A program made the translations under genes and the position numbers. From a virus, in the IMG/VR virus record IMGVR_UViG_3300045135_001742, positions 1 to 24,656 of that record: DNA of 24,656 bases, one strand, 5' to 3'. Every line of letters begins with the position of its first letter. The first letter of the stretch is position 1. Under the pieces are notes generated by a model. It did no database searches and was not told where the DNA came from. It saw only the letters and a program-made list of their open reading frames with translations. This document shows, piece after piece, positions 1-24,656 of the stretch.

Positions 1-507
1 ATGATAGAAGCAGATAAGGATGTGATATCTATACCTTACCCATTAAAAGCTTTTCTTTGGGATAAAGGTTTAGAAGCAATGCAGGAAGGTAGAATAAAAA
101 CACCCGAACAATTAGCACAATCTTTTAATAGTTATCCAATGAGAGTTCCAGATAATGCAGATATTAAAGTTGATAATGGTATTATAGAAGTAACACATAG
201 CCCTACTGGTTGTATGTTAATAAAGAGGTCAGTTTTTGATAAAATGATTAAAGCCTACCCAGATAAAGTAATTAAACAAAATACTGTAATAAACAGTAAA
301 GTTGTACCTAAAAAACACATGTGGAATTTCTTTGATACTTTACATGATCCAGAAACTAAAACATATCTAGGTGAAGACTTTGCATTCTGCAAACTATGGA
401 AAGATATAGGAGGTCAATGCTATGCCTATATTATGGATGAAATAACCCATGTAGGAGAGCATCAATATTCTGGTAGATTTTACGATGAGTTGATATTAGA
501 TAAGTAA
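1..507 (+). CDS. Glycosyltransferase-like protein, C-terminal part (5' partial)
   Basis: The product resembles the C-terminal half of a GT-A type glycosyltransferase-like protein common in marine phages. Visible signatures are a MLIKRSVF segment near residue 73, a FFDTLHDPE segment near 111, an acidic YLGEDFAFCKLW block near 120-131 (the family usually has Y-L-x-E-D-x-x-F/C) and a late histidine in THVGEH. The expected N-terminal nucleotide-sugar-binding half with its DxD motif is absent. The reading frame is open to base 1, so the ATG at position 1 is probably an internal methionine and the gene starts outside the window. It precedes virion genes by about 45 bases. A role in modifying virion or host surface glycans is inferred from the family; the sugar and acceptor cannot be told. 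Confidence 0.7.
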   Translation: MIEADKDVISIPYPLKAFLWDKGLEAMQEGRIKTPEQLAQSFNSYPMRVPDNADIKVDNGIIEVTHSPTGCMLIKRSVFDKMIKAYPDKVIKQNTVINSKVVPKKHMWNFFDTLHDPETKTYLGEDFAFCKLWKDIGGQCYAYIMDEITHVGEHQYSGRFYDELILDK

Positions 508-11111: not shown

Positions 11112-11903
11112 ATGAAAATAAAAGACGGACAATCGAACGAAGTATCGATAAAGAAAGAAGCCGGTGCAGTTGCTGCAATTAATATTGAGCAATTCGCTGA
11201 TGAAGGTTTTGATAATGTGGACTCAAAGAGTTTAGCATTACCATTCCTTAAAGTGCTTGGACAACTATCACCACAAGTAACTCAAGGTGATAGTAATTTT
11301 ATACCAGAAGCTAAAGCAGGTATGATCTATAACACTGTTACAGATGAACTGTATGATGGCCAAAAAGGTATAACAGTTATTCCATGCTTTTATAAGTTGG
11401 AATACATTGAGTGGAAAGACAGAGAAAAAGGTGCTGTAGCTCCTGTAAATGTTTATCCATCAGACTCAGACATCATGAGTAAAACTACAAGAGGTGATGA
11501 TGGTAAGGATAGATTACCGAATGGTAACTATATCGAAGAAACTGCATCTCATTATGTAATGGTTGTTGAGCCAGAAAAAACTTCAACAGCTTTAGTAACA
11601 ATGAAATCTACTCAAAGGAAGAAGTCCAAGAAGTGGAATTCTATGATGATGTCTCTAAGACAAAAGAAAAAAGATGGTCAAGGATTTTTTAAACCTGCAC
11701 CATTTACTCAACAATATAATATGAGAACTGTGTTAGAGAAAAATAATCTTGGTTCATGGTTTGGTTGGGAGATTGAACATTTAGGTCCTGTCCAAAGCCA
11801 AGAGGTTATGAAATCAGCTTTTGATTTTTACGAAAGTTGTAAAAAAGGTTCTGTGAGAGTGAATCATAATAAAGAAGAACAAGTCGAGAAAACTCCATTT
11901 TAA
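11112..11903 (+). CDS. Conserved phage protein, candidate single-strand DNA-binding protein
   Basis: The 263-residue product contains LALPFLKVLGQLSPQV (about residues 42-57), GMIYNTVTDELYDGQKGITV (about 70-90) and a lysine-rich stretch near 165-190. It matches a protein type found in many podoviruses and siphoviruses of proteobacteria beside primase and helicase genes. It is often listed as hypothetical, and sometimes suspected of being the single-strand DNA-binding protein. The context here (after the coiled-coil gene and four bases before the primase) supports a replication role. No OB-fold motif can be proven by eye. Only a weak TAGGT ribosome site precedes the ATG. Confidence 0.6.
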   Translation: MKIKDGQSNEVSIKKEAGAVAAINIEQFADEGFDNVDSKSLALPFLKVLGQLSPQVTQGDSNFIPEAKAGMIYNTVTDELYDGQKGITVIPCFYKLEYIEWKDREKGAVAPVNVYPSDSDIMSKTTRGDDGKDRLPNGNYIEETASHYVMVVEPEKTSTALVTMKSTQRKKSKKWNSMMMSLRQKKKDGQGFFKPAPFTQQYNMRTVLEKNNLGSWFGWEIEHLGPVQSQEVMKSAFDFYESCKKGSVRVNHNKEEQVEKTPF

Positions 11904-11906
11904 TTT

Positions 11907-13478
11907 ATGGATCTACTTGACAAGCACCTGGAGGAGTTTGTAGAACTCTTCCAGGGCTCTACTACATATTTTGGAGTATCCAAACCCACGGGTAAGAAAA
12001 ATTCCAAGGGTAAGGCAGAATTCAAACATTGGGTTGAACCTCAACCAATGACGAAAGATCATTGGATTAGTCATTTAAAAGGAGAATCTTATTATGGGTC
12101 TGTCCCTATTAGAGATGATAATACATGCAGTTGGGGGGTCATCGATGTTGATCGTTATAATATACGGCATCAAGACCTTATTTCTATCATCAGACAAAGA
12201 AAATACCCACTAGTTCCTTTTAGATCTAAATCAAACGGATTACATTTGATTTTATTTATTGATGGAGTTGTTGCAGCTTCAGCAATGAGAAAAAAATTAA
12301 TAGAACTTGCATCCGACTTAGGTATCAATGATACCACTACTGATATTTTTCCTGCACAAGATGAAGTTGATTTAACTCCTGACAATTGGGATGATAAAAG
12401 AAAAGGTAATTTTGTAAACTTACCTTATCAAAAAGCACACATGACAACTAGGGTTGCCATGGATGATAATTGTAATTCTATTAAGTTAGAAAATTTATAT
12501 GAGTTTGTGTCTAATTACAGACTTACACCTGCAGAATTTAAAAAATTAAAAATATTTCAAGATGACGAAACAAAAGATTACCCACCTTGTGTTGTTAATT
12601 TTATGAAAAACAAAGTACAAAAAGGTGAAGGTAGAAATGATGCAATGTTTAATGTAGCAGTTTTAGCTAAAAAAATAAATCCAGATCCTGTTATGTATGA
12701 AGAGTGGACAAGAGAGATGATGAGTAAAGTATGTAGTGAAAAACTACATCCAAAAGAATTACAAAATATTTTTAAAGGTGTTGAAAACAAAGAGTATGCT
12801 TATAAATGCAAAACATCTATAGCAAGAATGCATTGTGTATCTAGTGAATGTGTAAAACGTAAACTTGGTATTGGTGCAAATGAAGCTTTACCTGAAGTTG
12901 GAAAACTTATTAAAGTAAATTCATATCCAGAGCCTTATTGGATATTACCTATTCAAGGTAAATCAATTCGATTATCAACTAAACAACTATATCAACAACA
13001 GCTCCTGGGGGAACAACTATTAAATTACGATATAGTTTGGAGACCCTTAAAACCAACAAAACGTGACCCAGATCCATACAGAGATTGGTTAGAAGAACTT
13101 GTAACTAACAAACAAGACATGGAAGGGTTTGATGCAGTAGAAGAAAGAGATGATGTATTCAATAATAGAATGAACAGATTTTTAGAAGATGTGGAGGATA
13201 CTACAGAGTTTGATCAAATTGATTCTGACAATATATGGCGTGATGATAATGAAATGAGATTTAAGCTAGAAACATTTAGATCTTTTATGAAAAAATTAGG
13301 TTACAACTGGAATGAAAAAGAATGTACTAGATTTTTAGAACAAGGTGGAGCGAAACCAAAGAAGAAGTTTCAAGGGATAGATAGTAGACACTGGGTAGTG
13401 GCTTTACCAAAACAAACGGAGCATAAAAATAAAGATGTTAAATTCACTAAACCAAAAGCTGCGTGGGAAGACAATTAA
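11907..13478 (+). CDS. Archaeo-eukaryotic-type primase (TOTE-like AEP domain) with C-terminal cysteine domain
   Basis: The 523-residue protein carries archaeo-eukaryotic primase motifs. These are WGVIDVDRY with Asp80 and Asp82 (metal-binding hhDhD), KSNGLHLILF with His113 (sxH motif), and DIFPAQDEVD followed by GNFVNLPY (about 146-174), a pattern typical of the AEP domain in TOTE systems and related phages. A helical region (about 225-320) has Cys228, Cys301, Cys310 and Cys315, resembling the metal-cluster helical domain that follows many AEP domains. It would make primers for the downstream PolA. It lies four bases after the candidate DNA-binding gene and overlaps the UvrD-like gene by 44 bases. 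No Shine-Dalgarno is apparent. Confidence 0.8.
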   Translation: MDLLDKHLEEFVELFQGSTTYFGVSKPTGKKNSKGKAEFKHWVEPQPMTKDHWISHLKGESYYGSVPIRDDNTCSWGVIDVDRYNIRHQDLISIIRQRKYPLVPFRSKSNGLHLILFIDGVVAASAMRKKLIELASDLGINDTTTDIFPAQDEVDLTPDNWDDKRKGNFVNLPYQKAHMTTRVAMDDNCNSIKLENLYEFVSNYRLTPAEFKKLKIFQDDETKDYPPCVVNFMKNKVQKGEGRNDAMFNVAVLAKKINPDPVMYEEWTREMMSKVCSEKLHPKELQNIFKGVENKEYAYKCKTSIARMHCVSSECVKRKLGIGANEALPEVGKLIKVNSYPEPYWILPIQGKSIRLSTKQLYQQQLLGEQLLNYDIVWRPLKPTKRDPDPYRDWLEELVTNKQDMEGFDAVEERDDVFNNRMNRFLEDVEDTTEFDQIDSDNIWRDDNEMRFKLETFRSFMKKLGYNWNEKECTRFLEQGGAKPKKKFQGIDSRHWVVALPKQTEHKNKDVKFTKPKAAWEDN

Positions 13479-19708: not shown

Positions 19709-20494
19709 ATGTCGAGAGCAGTAAATAATAAATTTTTTGAAACTAGAGATTATTCTATGTTCAAAAAAGTCCGAGGCAATAGACCTGTGGACGAAGCACA
19801 TGTTAAGCAGTTAAAAAAATTAATTGCTGAAAAGGATTTAATGGATCCGATACGTGTGAACTCAAACATTGAAGTGGTAGATGGCCAACATACTTTACAG
19901 GCCAGAAAGGAATTAGGATTACCTGTTCCTTACATCATTATAAATTCTGATGATCCACTTGATGTTGCAAGACTGAACCAAGGTAGAAAGAACTGGTCCT
20001 TAGATCATTTCTTAGGTCACCATTGTGCAAGAGGTAAAATGGATTACAAAATTTGTAAATCTAAAATGCAACAGTGGGGATTACCAGTAGCAGAAACAAT
20101 TATTCTGTTACTAAAAATATCTTCAAGATACAGCACCATTGGAACAACTTTTAAAGAAGGTAATTTTAAAATACCCGCAGGTGGTATTGAACACTGTGAT
20201 AGAATTGGTGGTCAATTAAATTCTTTAAAAAAATATCTTATAGGTATTGATAATTCTGACAGAAGAATAAAACGTCAAATTATTACTGCATATATTATAG
20301 CGGATAGACACCCTAAATGGCAGTATGAGAGATTTAAAACTGCTTTGAAGAGTAAATCTGCTTGGTTGTTACATGGTACTACATCCAAAGATTACATTAA
20401 TATTTTTCAAAAAATATATAATGCTGGAAGATCACCAAAACAAAGAATAAATCTTGTTGAATTCTTTGAGTCAAAAGAATACAGAGATCAATAA
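19709..20494 (+). CDS. ParB/sulfiredoxin-like domain protein
   Basis: The 261-residue protein contains a ParB-type N-terminal domain: RPVDEAHVKQLKKLIAE (about 25-41), DPIRVNSNIEVVDGQHTLQA (about 46-65, with the DGQHR-like core as DGQHT) and a hydrophobic strand PYIIINSDDPLD. The rest is helical, with several basic stretches, and could bind DNA. ParB-like proteins in phages have roles from DNA segregation to transcription control or nuclease activity. An AAGGAGG ribosome site lies eight to nine bases before the ATG. It is followed by the ribbon-helix-helix-like gene after nine bases. Confidence 0.8.
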   Translation: MSRAVNNKFFETRDYSMFKKVRGNRPVDEAHVKQLKKLIAEKDLMDPIRVNSNIEVVDGQHTLQARKELGLPVPYIIINSDDPLDVARLNQGRKNWSLDHFLGHHCARGKMDYKICKSKMQQWGLPVAETIILLLKISSRYSTIGTTFKEGNFKIPAGGIEHCDRIGGQLNSLKKYLIGIDNSDRRIKRQIITAYIIADRHPKWQYERFKTALKSKSAWLLHGTTSKDYINIFQKIYNAGRSPKQRINLVEFFESKEYRDQ

Positions 20495-20503
20495 GGAGAA
20501 AAC

Positions 20504-20719
20504 ATGGACATCACTAAATGGAAATCTTGTGCAGTTGATATCGAATCATACACACTGATAAGAGCGATGGGAAAGGCAGGCTTCAGAAGACCTGGTAGCA
20601 TGATCGCTAAGTTAGTTGATGAAGAAGTAAGGAAGATTGCTAAGAAAGAGGGCAAGCCTTACGAAAAGATGAAAGAGAATTTACTATCGGAGGGCAAGAA
20701 GCTGCTCAATGGTAAATAG
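20504..20719 (+). CDS. Ribbon-helix-helix-like small regulator (tentative)
   Basis: The 71-residue product has a short N-terminal strand (KWKSCAVDIESYTLIRAMGK) followed by two helices (MIAKLVDEEVRKIAKKEGK), the order and size of Arc/MetJ-type ribbon-helix-helix DNA-binding proteins. An AAGGAG ribosome site precedes the ATG. The codons look richer in G and C than in neighbouring genes. The gene ends just before two hairpins, the second a strong terminator, so it is the last gene of its transcript. The match to ribbon-helix-helix proteins is by shape, not by a proven motif. Confidence 0.5.
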   Translation: MDITKWKSCAVDIESYTLIRAMGKAGFRRPGSMIAKLVDEEVRKIAKKEGKPYEKMKENLLSEGKKLLNGK

Positions 20720-20907: not shown

Positions 20908-21159
20908 GTGGGTAAAGCTGCACAAAAAGGCAGTCCAGAAGCATTAGAAGAAGCTTTAAATAAGCTAGTATTGTTATGTCCTAACAAAAAAACTTATGAC
21001 GAGCTGACTAGTCTTATGTTTCAGTTGTATTGTGGTAATGATTTTGGTTTAGGTAATTTCAGTTTAACATTTCTTGATAAAATTGAGAAGTGTTGGCAAT
21101 CTGGTAGAAAAAAAGCTGCACAAGCTAAAGGTTTGAAACTGGTTGTCAAAAATGCTTAG
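20908..21159 (+). CDS. Hypothetical protein with pseudoknot leader (83 residues)
   Basis: The product is helical and basic at the end (KKAAQAKGLKLVVKNA). It contains KLVLLCPNKKTYDELTSLMFQLYCGNDFGLGNF, and I do not recognise it. The start is GTG, with AAGGAG about six bases before it. It is the first gene after a strong terminator and a new candidate promoter, and the leader between them can fold into an H-type pseudoknot. The stop codon lies in the left arm of an eight-base inverted repeat. Confidence 0.6.
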   Translation: MGKAAQKGSPEALEEALNKLVLLCPNKKTYDELTSLMFQLYCGNDFGLGNFSLTFLDKIEKCWQSGRKKAAQAKGLKLVVKNA

Positions 21160-21204: not shown

Positions 21205-21404
21205 TGCTAATGGACTTATTTGATAAACGCTACATAAACGCATCCATAGAATTTTGTAAAACCTTAGATGGTAAGGACAGAAGCGAATTTATTTCCGAAG
21301 CATACGAAGATTTAGAATTTTCAACTCAGCAAGGATCTCCATTAATTGTTCAAAGGAGGTTCCGTGAGTTATTCTCCAAACTTATTGAAAATTTTGGGCA
21401 TTAA
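21204..21404 (+). CDS. Hypothetical protein (66 residues)
   Basis: The frame from ATG 21204 (or ATG 21210) gives a small acidic helical protein, MDLFDKRYINASIEFC and onward, ending in QRRFRELFSKLIENFGH. No ribosome site is seen. The ATG lies on the right edge of an inverted repeat whose left arm is at the stop of the preceding gene, so translation may depend on RNA structure or coupling. It overlaps the next gene by about 41 bases. Function unknown. Confidence 0.5.
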   Translation: MLMDLFDKRYINASIEFCKTLDGKDRSEFISEAYEDLEFSTQQGSPLIVQRRFRELFSKLIENFGH

Positions 21405-21774
21405 AATGTCTGCTGAATTAATTAAAAATAATAAAAGCCCAGAACAAAGGTTGTTTCAAGCTATTATCTTACAAGGTTTTGAAGACGCTTTAACTAATCA
21501 AACAGGTAAACAAGAATCTTATATTAAAAAAGATGCACATGATTGGTTTTTAAAGAACGACCAACAGTTTCAAGAAATTTGTTGGTACGCTGGATTTGAT
21601 CCAGATTTAATTCATGATCGTTATAAAAAATTAATTAAAGAGAAAAAAATTGTTTTTTCTAAATTACAATTAACATGGATTAAGTATAGAAATTTATATA
21701 AAGATTATAGAGCTGCTAAAACCTCTGCTGAACGAAGAAAAATAATGATAGAGATTTGTAAATTAAAAAATTAA
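21364..21774 (+). CDS. Conserved phage protein of unknown function (136 residues)
   Basis: The start is taken as GTG 21364, preceded by AAAGGAGG with a short four-base spacer. ATG 21405 is a possible later start without a ribosome site. The product has EQRLFQAIILQGFEDALTN, then DAHDWFLKNDQQFQEICWYAGFDPDLIHDRYKKL, a helical pattern (W-F, I-C-x-x-A-G-x-D-P-D) that I associate with small phage proteins of unknown function in alphaproteobacterial phages. The rest is lysine-rich. It ends two bases before the stop of a convergent minus-strand gene. Confidence 0.65.
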   Translation: MSYSPNLLKILGIKMSAELIKNNKSPEQRLFQAIILQGFEDALTNQTGKQESYIKKDAHDWFLKNDQQFQEICWYAGFDPDLIHDRYKKLIKEKKIVFSKLQLTWIKYRNLYKDYRAAKTSAERRKIMIEICKLKN

Positions 21775-22087: not shown

Positions 22088-22591
22088 TTAATTTGTGTAA
22101 TTGATATTTAGAACAATTCTACTTTTGCTATCTGTGGTATTTGTGCCACAGTGTAGTAAATTTGAGTTAAAAGTGACTAATCTATTTGCTTTTGAATATA
22201 TTTTTGTACCATTTTCAAATTTAGTGTAGCCATTATTAGTATTTATGTAAAAAACTGAGGTTTTACATTTTACAGGTACATCAACATGTAGTCCAGATTC
22301 AAAAATTTTATTAGAGTACATGGTCATATTGATTTTACACCTGTATAATAGTTTGACGTTTAATTTTTGTAATATTGGTTGCACCACATCAAAATATCTT
22401 GATGTAATTTTTTCATTGTCGTAGTGTTTAAAGATATGCGTAAATTGGAATGATTCTAAAGTAGAATCTATTTCTGGTTCACCATTTTTGTTGTAGTTAA
22501 TGTATTTGTTAAAAAACCACGGAAATTCAGCACTTTCTAAATAAGATTGTATTTTATCAAAGGTTTTTTGGTCTAAAAAATTATCTTCCAT
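22088..22591 (-). CDS. 2-oxoglutarate/Fe(II) oxygenase-like protein (small)
   Basis: The 167-residue product has a GLHVDVP motif (His102-x-Asp104), a YTKFENGTKI strand, LVTFNSNLLHCG (His147) and SRIVLNINY (Arg158). This gives the HxD...H facial triad plus 2-oxoglutarate-binding Arg of Fe(II) oxygenases, similar to short forms in cyanophages. Family members hydroxylate proteins or small molecules; the substrate is unknown. No Shine-Dalgarno precedes the ATG. Palindromic C/G-rich sites lie on both sides of the gene, and a CCGG-type hairpin sits just past its stop. Confidence 0.7.
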   Translation of the reverse strand: MEDNFLDQKTFDKIQSYLESAEFPWFFNKYINYNKNGEPEIDSTLESFQFTHIFKHYDNEKITSRYFDVVQPILQKLNVKLLYRCKINMTMYSNKIFESGLHVDVPVKCKTSVFYINTNNGYTKFENGTKIYSKANRLVTFNSNLLHCGTNTTDSKSRIVLNINYTN

Positions 22592-22635
22592 AAATTTTAC
22601 TATATAGATATTCTAGACCCCTGACTAATAAAAAG

Positions 22636-22649
22636 TACCCCAGGGGGTA
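22636..22649. repeat. Perfect palindromic site TACCCC-AG-GGGGTA
   Basis: TACCCC (22636-22641) and GGGGTA (22644-22649) are perfect inverted arms around AG. It lies about 45 bases upstream of the oxygenase start and is related to the sites at 21973-22019. Confidence 0.5.
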
Positions 22650-22654
22650 AAACA

Positions 22655-22759
22655 GGTGTCCCTGGTGTCCCTGATGTACTATTAATCAATAATAGCAACA
22701 CTTCTAATCGATTTTAATGGTGTCCCTGTGGTGTCCCTGTGGTGTCCCTAGGGACACCA
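22655..22759. repeat. GGTGTCCCT iteron array ending in a 20-bp palindrome
   Basis: Direct copies of GGTGTCCCT occur at 22655, 22664, 22719, 22730 and 22741. The first two abut (period 9) and the last three have a period of 11, about one DNA turn. The last copy is followed at once by its reverse complement AGGGACACC (22750-22758), giving the perfect palindrome TGGTGTCCCTAGGGACACCA (22740-22759). The array may be a replication origin, a packaging site or a multi-copy operator. Confidence 0.75.
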
Positions 22760-22832
22760 CTCTTGCGGGAACGCTATCGAAACTTTTTCAGGTAGTTACT
22801 TTGTGATGAAATAATCTATATAGTAGAAAATT

Positions 22833-23054
22833 ATGTATAAAAAATATATTGAGCTAGGAAAACTTGGTTTGGAGTTTTTAAAAAAAACTAAACAGTATTA
22901 TAAACAAGGTGGAAAAAAAACTAAAGATATTATGAGTGAATCTGGTGTATCAAAAGAAATTGCTAAGAGTGATATAAAATCAGATATCAAACGTAGAGTA
23001 TTTGGAAGACATAGAAGACCATCTGACTTTTATGATAAACCCAAAGGAAGATAA
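22833..23054 (+). CDS. Small basic protein upstream of the terminase gene
   Basis: The 73-residue product is strongly basic, with an amphipathic N-terminal helix (YIELGKLGLEFLKKTKQYYKQ) and an Arg/His-rich tail (RRVFGRHRRPSDFYDKPKGR), suggesting nucleic acid binding. Its stop overlaps the start of the terminase small-subunit gene (TAATG), so the two are probably co-translated. No ribosome site is evident. The iteron array lies just upstream. I do not know the family. Confidence 0.6.
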   Translation: MYKKYIELGKLGLEFLKKTKQYYKQGGKKTKDIMSESGVSKEIAKSDIKSDIKRRVFGRHRRPSDFYDKPKGR

Positions 23055-23584
23055 TGCCAGGCGGATTAAAGAAAAAAGAATTACGAACTGAAGATGATCT
23101 GACTCCTAAACAAAGAATGTTTGTGGAGATTTATGTTAAAGATTGGGGCAGCATAACACAAGCCGAAGCACTTAAACGTGCAGGTTATGTTTGTAAAAAT
23201 GAAAATGATTATGGAGTAATTGCCTCCAGGTTGCTATCAAGAAGATTAAATCCTCATGTTGCAAAATTTTTTGACAAAAGATTTGAAAAAGAAATTAAAA
23301 TGTACGAAGGTGATAACCTTAGACGTTACAAAAGATTTGAAAGACTTGCTGACAAAGCTGAAAAGAAAGATCAATTTGCTGCGGCTATCAATGCCGAATA
23401 TAGGTCTGGTCAATTAGCCGGTGCTTTCATAGATAGAAAAGAAGTAAGAGTAACAGGTCTGGAGGGAATGTCACGTGAAGAACTTGAAAACAAGTTATCG
23501 GAGTTATCGCAGAAGATCGATGGCTATAATGCCAAAACGATCGAAGCTGAGCCAGAACACGTTGAAGAAATTAAAAACAGCTAG
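23054..23584 (+). CDS. Terminase small subunit
   Basis: The 176-residue protein has an N-terminal helix-turn-helix region, LTPKQRMFVEIYV followed by SITQAEALKRAGY (about 14-44), the usual 'LT.KQ..FV..Y' and 'N/TQA.. RAGY' pattern of phage terminase small subunits. A helical oligomerisation part and a charged C-terminal tail that would meet the large subunit follow. It would bind the packaging site and start DNA packaging. Translation is coupled to the upstream basic protein. The large subunit is not in the window and would be expected downstream. Confidence 0.8.
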   Translation: MPGGLKKKELRTEDDLTPKQRMFVEIYVKDWGSITQAEALKRAGYVCKNENDYGVIASRLLSRRLNPHVAKFFDKRFEKEIKMYEGDNLRRYKRFERLADKAEKKDQFAAAINAEYRSGQLAGAFIDRKEVRVTGLEGMSREELENKLSELSQKIDGYNAKTIEAEPEHVEEIKNS

Positions 23585-23964: not shown

Positions 23965-24365
23965 TGAAACGCAACATAAATCAAGAAAGTTTGCTATGGC
24001 AAAGGACTAAAAAAGGACTGACTGATTGTTATTTAACCCGCATAGAAACTAGCACAATCAATGGTGTACCAGATGTTCATGGTGTTCATAAAAAAGGAAT
24101 ATTTTGGATAGAATTAAAATCAGATCAGCTCAGTTATCCTAAGCTAAATAAGTGGCAAATAGTTTGGATAAATAAATATGTTAAAGCTGGTGGTAATGTA
24201 TTTATCTTGAAAGAGACCCTCTCGAAGAGGTCTCTTAAACTGTACAAGCCGGTGTCACTGTTCACTGATCCTCGTTCACTGATACCTCGTTGCTCGTTCT
24301 CGTTTCCGTTTCAATGGCCACGGATCCAGGAGCAGCTGGTGAACCTTCTCAGGGAGGCAGCGTGA
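23964..24365 (+). CDS. VRR-NUC domain endonuclease, with odd C-terminal extension
   Basis: The first 95 residues match a stand-alone VRR-NUC nuclease: INGVPDVHGV (Asp37), IFWIELKSDQ (Glu50-x-Lys52) and KWQIVWI (Gln65), the PD-(D/E)XK core, then a GGNVFIL strand. Such phage proteins cut branched DNA. The normal domain ends near LKLYKP (about residue 96). After that the frame continues 37 residues through GC-rich repeat sequence (Ser/Phe/Pro/Arg rich) with no domain character. That part may be an artefact of a composition break near 24240-24260, so the true stop and end are uncertain. Confidence 0.75.
   Translation: MKRNINQESLLWQRTKKGLTDCYLTRIETSTINGVPDVHGVHKKGIFWIELKSDQLSYPKLNKWQIVWINKYVKAGGNVFILKETLSKRSLKLYKPVSLFTDPRSLIPRCSFSFPFQWPRIQEQLVNLLREAA
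24211..24236 (+). repeat. Near-perfect hairpin inside the VRR-NUC gene
   Basis: AAGAGACC(C)TCT, loop CGA and AGAGGTCTCTT give an 11-pair stem with one bulged C. It resembles a terminator stem but has no following T run. It lies immediately before the composition break of the last 400 bases, so it may mark the end of the genuine AT-rich gene or a junction. Confidence 0.55.
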
Positions 24366-24656
24366 TCCTCGTTCTCGTTTCTCGTTCTCCTCGTTCTCGT
24401 TCAAAGATCACCGAATGGCCCATCCCGCATCCTGCAGCTGGAGCTGGAACCTTCGCTTCACCGAATGCCGTTTCTCGCCCTCGTTTTTCTTCCCTCTTTG
24501 TTGTTTAACGGGGGCAAGTAACGGCATCCCGCTGGAGGCGCAGCAGGATCTCGTCTCGTTGTCAAGGAGAAAGGTCTCGTTCTCGTTTAACAAGTGGCAC
24601 TGGCACCTGCAGCTGGAAGCTCAGGAGCTGGGATTCAGGTAACTGCTGTGGGAAAA
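24260..24656. other. GC-rich, TCGTT-rich repetitive end region without a convincing gene
   Basis: Composition changes abruptly from AT-rich phage sequence to roughly half or more G+C. TCGTT occurs 13 times between 24272 and 24587, in runs such as CTCGTTCTCGTT; TTCACTGAT is repeated at 14-base spacing (24261, 24275); CACCGAATG occurs twice, and TGCAGCTGGA twice. Open frames here have low-complexity Ser/Arg/Phe products and are not credible genes. It may be a chimeric contig end, or a real terminal or intergenic repeat region. Confidence 0.7.

Follow-up and report, generated by a model that had tools for sequence, protein, structure and literature searches.

A conserved iteron array upstream of terS in marine phages: a candidate replication origin and its putative reader, the phage AEP primase

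Introduction

For most marine phages, the origins of replication and the initiator proteins are unknown. The viral DNA analysed here (IMG/VR record IMGVR_UViG_3300045135_001742; the whole stretch of 24,656 bases is called the window below) carries an array of short repeats in the gap between two divergent genes, and the question is what this array does and which protein reads it. A first-pass annotation, made from the letters alone, allowed three readings: a replication origin, a packaging site (cos/pac), or an operator for a phage regulator such as the ParB-like or ribbon-helix-helix (RHH)-like protein encoded at 19709-20719. According to our comparison of viral genomes, the repeats appear to be a conserved docking site in an abundant marine phage group, and most likely a start point for DNA copying.

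Results

The iteron array in the window

The nonamer GGTGTCCCT occurs in six exact copies within 22655-22758 (Table 1) and in no other exact copy in the window, so that all five direct copies, three of them phased at 11 bases, and the inverted copy of the first-pass annotation were recovered. With up to one mismatch, 10 matches were counted over the whole window against 2.0 expected, and none of 100 shuffles reached 10. The spacings between the direct copies are 9, 55, 11 and 11 bp, after which the inverted copy abuts directly. Iteron 5 and the inverted copy build a palindrome, GTGGTGTCCCT followed by AGGGACACCAC, which is perfect as previously described, with a length of 22 rather than 20 bp. 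The array is flanked by divergent open reading frames, as had been noted (22088-22591 on the minus strand and 22833-23054 on the plus strand), and forms the core of a larger element that is bounded by a 15-bp inverted repeat and contains further conserved blocks on either side of the array.

The minus-strand reading frame has a PHROG match whose name, 'DNA endonuclease V', is probably wrong, and a Pfam match to 2OG-Fe(II) oxygenases that does not reach the curated cut-off. The end of the window (24230-24656, about 430 bases) differs from the remainder by its higher GC content and many CTCGTTCTCGTT-like repeats, and probably stems from a chimera or a mis-assembly at the end of the contig.

Table 1. 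Features of the element, its downstream neighbour and the proposed reader (window coordinates; counts refer to the elements scored for architecture)
Feature	Position	Strand	Remark
Left arm of bounding inverted repeat (TTTTACTATATAGAT)	22595..22609	.	191/198 elements
GC palindrome GTACCCCAGGGGGT, conserved, left of array	22635..22648	.	similar block in 124/198 elements
Iteron 1 GGTGTCCCT, first copy of the tandem pair with 9-bp pitch	22655..22663	+	pair in 198/198 elements
Iteron 2 GGTGTCCCT	22664..22672	+	exact match
AT-rich spacer of fixed length (46 nt); candidate strand-opening or bending region	22673..22718	.	
Position of IHF-like site (WATCAANNNNTTR)	22693..22705	+	at least 2 mismatches in window copy; 0-1 in many relatives
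Iteron 3 GGTGTCCCT	22719..22727	+	exact match
Iteron 4 GGTGTCCCT, 11-bp pitch	22730..22738	+	exact match
Iteron 5 GGTGTCCCT, 11-bp pitch	22741..22749	+	exact match
Inverted iteron	22750..22758	-	inverted copy in 197/198 elements
Perfect palindrome, 22 bp	22739..22760	.	iteron 5 + inverted copy
Hairpin block TTGCGGGAACGC (GCG-GGAA-CGC), conserved, right of array	22763..22774	+	similar block in 155/198 elements
Right arm of bounding inverted repeat (ATCTATATAGTAGAA)	22814..22828	.	198/198 elements
Terminase small subunit (TerS)	23054..23584	+	constant downstream neighbour; reader role excluded by cross-class identity
AEP primase, TOTE-type AEP domain at residues 33-201; proposed iteron-binding initiator	11907..13478	+	
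Predicted C-terminal winged-helix domain of primase, about residues 449-499	13251..13403	+	
Codon of primase residue 486	13362..13364	+	K in window
Codon of primase residue 492	13380..13382	+	D in window

Conservation of the element among viruses

Pattern scans across viral contigs yielded over 100 loci; the majority share the layout of the window, in which copies stand at +0, +9, +62..64, +73..75 and +84..86 and are followed by the abutting inverted copy. Together with loci fetched via TerS, a further scan and an unsupervised layout search, 213 distinct elements were collected. A search of related phages for the nonamer at the same position had been recommended; at least 213 distinct viral loci carry the same element of about 230 bp, inside its inverted repeat and upstream of terS. 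The architecture was scored on the 198 elements with sufficient flank (Table 1); the 11-bp pitch is kept in 197 of these, as is a distance of 73-75 bp from the start of the tandem pair to iteron 4, and the median arm-to-arm span is 225 bp. An alignment of the elements displays the bounding inverted repeat (TACTATATAGAT... / ...ATCTATATAGTA), the GC palindrome on the left and a TTGCG-GGAA-CGC hairpin on the right. Six contigs of 54-63 kb contain one element each, in the gene order of the window and always upstream of TerS; on these long contigs the element is non-coding and single per genome. TerS is the downstream neighbour in 198 of the 213 elements.

These elements share two properties of iteron origins, namely short, phased direct repeats that are conserved and non-coding, and an AT-rich region next to the repeats, here the spacer of fixed length. 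In 40 of 66 distinct spacers the best match to an IHF site had 0-1 mismatch, compared with about 10% of shuffles, and it lay most often at the offset of 22693..22705 in the window, which is suggestive only of an IHF site in the spacer.

Loci without a divergent gene on the left still have the bounding inverted repeat (CTATATAGAT/ATCTATATAG), which may represent promoters, a structural boundary or a part of the origin. The interval between the element and terS (22833-23054 in the window) differs among relatives, which encode several small basic proteins there, one, or none, and this suggests a site of small-gene gain and loss. Arrays of GGTGTCCCT with a 12-bp pitch (L024, L118, L121) can be interpreted as repetitive coding sequence and were left out. 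A comparison of the element DNA with sequenced phages returned chance-level similarity only, the match in S-MbCM6 being two copies in a 50-bp gap.

A natural switch between two iteron types

Some loci fetched via TerS seemed to lack the element. In these, all iterons, including the inverted copy, were changed to GGTGTATCT. The two types differ in iteron bases 6-7, and the 213 distinct elements are split into 109 with GGTGTCCCT (CC) and 104 with GGTGTATCT (AT), with no mixed element; two CC elements hold one stray TGTATC/GATACA hexamer each within the scored stretch. A probe for the right arm, which is independent of the iterons, found 61 elements, all of one of the same two types. The joint switch of all copies implies a single sequence-specific reader with altered preference. 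Ten proteins were tested, and the class changes at least 7-16 times on their trees. These phages therefore recombine freely, which makes the search for a reader that follows the iteron class a sharp test.

The AEP primase tracks the iteron type

About 55 gene families from 28 long contigs were screened for a reader. Within the families present in 14 or more CC and 9 or more AT contigs, columns with disjoint residues between the classes were found only in the AEP primase (two columns); some families present in fewer genomes had such columns too, but at highly variable sites. The primase, encoded about 10 kb upstream of the array, was the only one of the roughly 55 families with near-fixed class-separating residues: residue 486 is K with GGTGTCCCT and A/S with GGTGTATCT, while residue 492 is D/S with GGTGTCCCT and Q with GGTGTATCT. 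For each of the 34 distinct primases that have a linked element, the two residues match the iteron class of that element. In the 129 distinct primases, only the combinations K+D/S/E or A/S+Q occur. Loci fetched later via the primase alone, about nine on new contigs and about five already seen, were concordant in 14 of 14 cases.

When columns 468-500 were left out, the primase tree placed seven switches of class and likewise seven each of residues 486 and 492. Independent pairs on supported branches agreed in five of five cases (sign test p = 0.06, the minimum for five pairs), and the full best tree holds seven independent pairs. When traits with seven random switches were simulated, 0 of 200,000 matched the class pattern under each of two schemes. 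From this co-switching of residues 486 and 492 with the iteron type we name the primase as the probable reader, and infer that the iterons are bound sequence-specifically by the phage's own primase.

The assignment as an AEP primase is based on matches to Pfam PF22548 (E=1e-13) and to the primase family phrog_21866 (E=4e-69; profile match over residues 6-502), with the catalytic motifs (DxD and SxH-like) present and the residues D80, D82 and H113 the same in all of 23 sequences, and on a structural model that matched solved AEP Prim-Pol domains in Foldseek with a probability of 1.0. The primase sequence itself had no match among solved structures. Residues 486 and 492 are located in or at the wing hairpin of the predicted C-terminal winged helix (modest confidence, pLDDT about 61-62). 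Foldseek gave no significant match for the C-terminal model, and a re-alignment retrieved, weakly, mostly winged-helix DNA binders, the best being TcpK with a Z of 6.5, a value in the range of common arrangements that does not imply homology; the origin-binding domain of P4 alpha was absent among the listed matches. Lysine commonly prefers G and glutamine A in base recognition. A lysine opposite the complementary-strand GG and a glutamine opposite A would fit these preferences.

Arrays in phages with distant primase homologues

Homologues of the window primase, some of them distant, are encoded by sequenced phages, whose arrays were found by an unsupervised search for repeat clusters; the groups of HTVC023P, PMBT28 and Bhz9 are likened to the window by array layout alone. 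In the isolate Pelagibacter phage HTVC023P, copies of CTAGGAAAA lie at about 11,680-11,775 of MN698239, directly upstream of terS: two in tandem (8 bp) and, beyond a spacer, two phased at 11 bp with an inverted copy abutting them. This is the layout of the window with a different iteron, and uncultured relatives carry variants of it. In a paper on uncultured HTVC023P-type phages, the terms 'iteron' and 'origin of replication' are absent from the text. Salmonella phage PMBT28 and Acinetobacter phage Bhz9 have two GGAAC-type arrays each, one of them directly upstream of the primase gene. The matching arrays of these two phages lie about half a genome apart (L563 20884-20985 and 43641-43790; L562 20919-21030 and 43294-43400). 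Phage DSL-LC04, which has a homologous primase, contains four intergenic copies of AACCGCACC at a 10-bp pitch (L560 23281-23320), possibly a counterpart array.

Discussion

Alternative readings of the element

The constant TerS gene downstream and the repeats on both sides of an IHF-like spacer, which resemble cosB, would suit a packaging initiation site (cosB/pac-like), at which TerS would bind iterons around a spacer bent by IHF, as in the R3-I1-R2-R1 arrangement of lambda. The most class-associated TerS columns (52, 55 and 56) moreover fall in its N-terminal helix-turn-helix region. TerS was rejected as the reader despite these columns, as identical TerS proteins are found with both iteron types (L122/L330 and L067/L280) and 19 cross-class pairs differ by no more than two residues, whereas a cosB or pac site is read by its cognate TerS. 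Contig ends upstream of TerS are scattered and mark no single cut, although contig ends from metagenomes say little about the ends of virion DNA, and contig G009 runs straight through the element. A fixed cos cut is likewise disfavoured, if weakly: contig starts near TerS seemed overrepresented, but fall at scattered points. The packaging reading of the first-pass annotation is thus very unlikely. An operator for a phage regulator is more improbable still. Its proposed reader would be the RHH-like protein (20504-20719), the ParB-like protein (19709-20494) or the product of 20908-21159 or 21346-21774, with the arms acting as divergent promoters; in the window, each of the two divergent start codons indeed has an arm directly upstream, and the candidate regulator genes are co-conserved beside the element. 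The DNA-reading residues of a regulator should change with its site, but the RHH-like proteins of ten cross-class pairs are identical, the ParB-like proteins and the 20908 product come within one residue of each other across classes, and the left arm is retained where no divergent gene adjoins. For the 21346 product all cross-class pairs differ by at least five residues, but no site discriminates the classes consistently. The 73-aa protein and the 23668 protein have identical forms with both classes, and these two, the 19341 product and VRR were dropped as readers together with the regulator candidates, being identical or nearly so across classes or lacking a consistent residue. As TerS, the RHH-like and the 73-aa proteins can be identical across the classes, none of them reads the variable bases.

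Another possibility, which we consider improbable though less so than packaging or an operator, is that the primase binds the iterons at a site other than an origin, that is, a site of repriming or lagging-strand assembly, a locus for regulation or incompatibility, or a site next to terS that couples replication with packaging. Co-variation identifies the binding partner only and not the outcome of binding, the terS neighbourhood is constant, and PMBT28 and Bhz9 have two arrays each. GC skew, a check that the first-pass annotation had recommended, does not change sign at the element when taken at third positions (GC3), which agrees with such a site but is uninformative and not decisive as an origin test. 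Against it, the phages studied here carry a single non-coding array per genome, with an iteron and AT-rich layout that is typical of origins. An origin in turn leaves the constant place of the element beside terS unexplained, and a coupling of the element to packaging is possible there.

A model for initiation

We posit, with a probability of about 0.76, that the array is the core of a replication origin and that the AEP primase binds the 9-bp iterons via its C-terminal winged helix, the wing reading bases 6-7. What we infer from the comparative patterns is that the primase physically binds the DNA, that its wing makes the contacts, that the site acts as an origin, and in which order the later steps follow. 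Of the earlier proposals, the origin is hence the one best supported, while the binding proteins named with it give way to the primase 10 kb upstream. The winged helices of the primase would occupy the five direct sites and the inverted site at fixed helical phase, and several molecules may assemble on one DNA face around the AT-rich, possibly IHF-bent, spacer. The cooperative binding of one protein to one face that was suggested for the repeats fits the fixed 11-bp pitch. The strands might then be opened at the spacer by the UvrD-like and SNF2-like helicases of the phage, which are encoded by reading frames separate from the primase, or by host factors, and the AEP domain would synthesize the initial primers for the PolA of the phage.

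Comparison with known systems

The iteron of phage P4 begins with GGTG, as does that of the window. As far as described in PMC4234260 (citing Yeo et al. 2002), P4 alpha is a primase whose winged-helix domain binds origin repeats, and primase and origin-binding winged helix would be likewise united in the window protein, where the winged helix is predicted only. According to the same source, P4 alpha has a bacterial-type (Toprim) primase and is a single multifunctional protein for unwinding and priming; the window primase is of AEP/TOTE type with 523 aa, and its phage encodes the helicases separately. The window system works like P4 alpha but is not a member of that class, given its AEP-type primase and the lack of a fused helicase.

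The primase-polymerase of phage NrS-1 is an AEP that recognizes TTTGGTTA, GTGG/GTG, in the template, and a specific replication start has been suggested for it (PMC8718748). Both are phage AEPs with sequence-specific recognition, here a predicted one, and the invariant half of the window iteron contains GTG; in NrS-1 the reading of the template is assigned to a helix-bundle domain, in contrast to the predicted C-terminal winged helix and the phased iteron array of the window. ORF904 of the archaeal plasmid pRN1 is an AEP primase whose C-terminus forms a winged-helix domain for DNA binding (PMC4234260), the same combination as predicted for the window primase. The pRN1 origin differs in being a large stem-loop without iterons. 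ORF904 also has a fused helicase domain. In SCCmec (Cch2/CCPol) and SaPI (Rep), a mobile-element initiator binds short iterons beside an AEP-type polymerase (PMC7581432), but the iterons there are bound by the helicase and not by a primase. TcpK, the best structural match to the primase C-terminus, is a winged-helix protein as well; mainly via its beta-wing, it binds the oriT boxes of pCW3, a tandem repeat of 9 nt (PMC6137059). It differs in being an accessory protein of conjugation without a primase.

Implications for marine phages

The joint switching of the primase wing and all iterons might define two origin-compatibility groups, exchanged by recombination between co-infecting phages, in which a primase fires origins of its own type only. 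This is a tentative proposal, to which we give somewhat less than even odds. If true, selection in ocean populations would maintain these groups as the phage counterpart of plasmid incompatibility groups, and the two residues would represent a natural code by which an AEP initiator recognizes its sites. That the winged helices of AEP primases from mobile elements recognize origins has been put forward as a speculation by Kazlauskas et al. (PMC5862659), and our model, if true, would sharpen this to a prediction that names the residues and the bases. Sequence alone has thus led to a candidate origin, its proposed binder and the residues that may set specificity, and the layout reaches the cultured pelagiphage HTVC023P, which makes the model testable.
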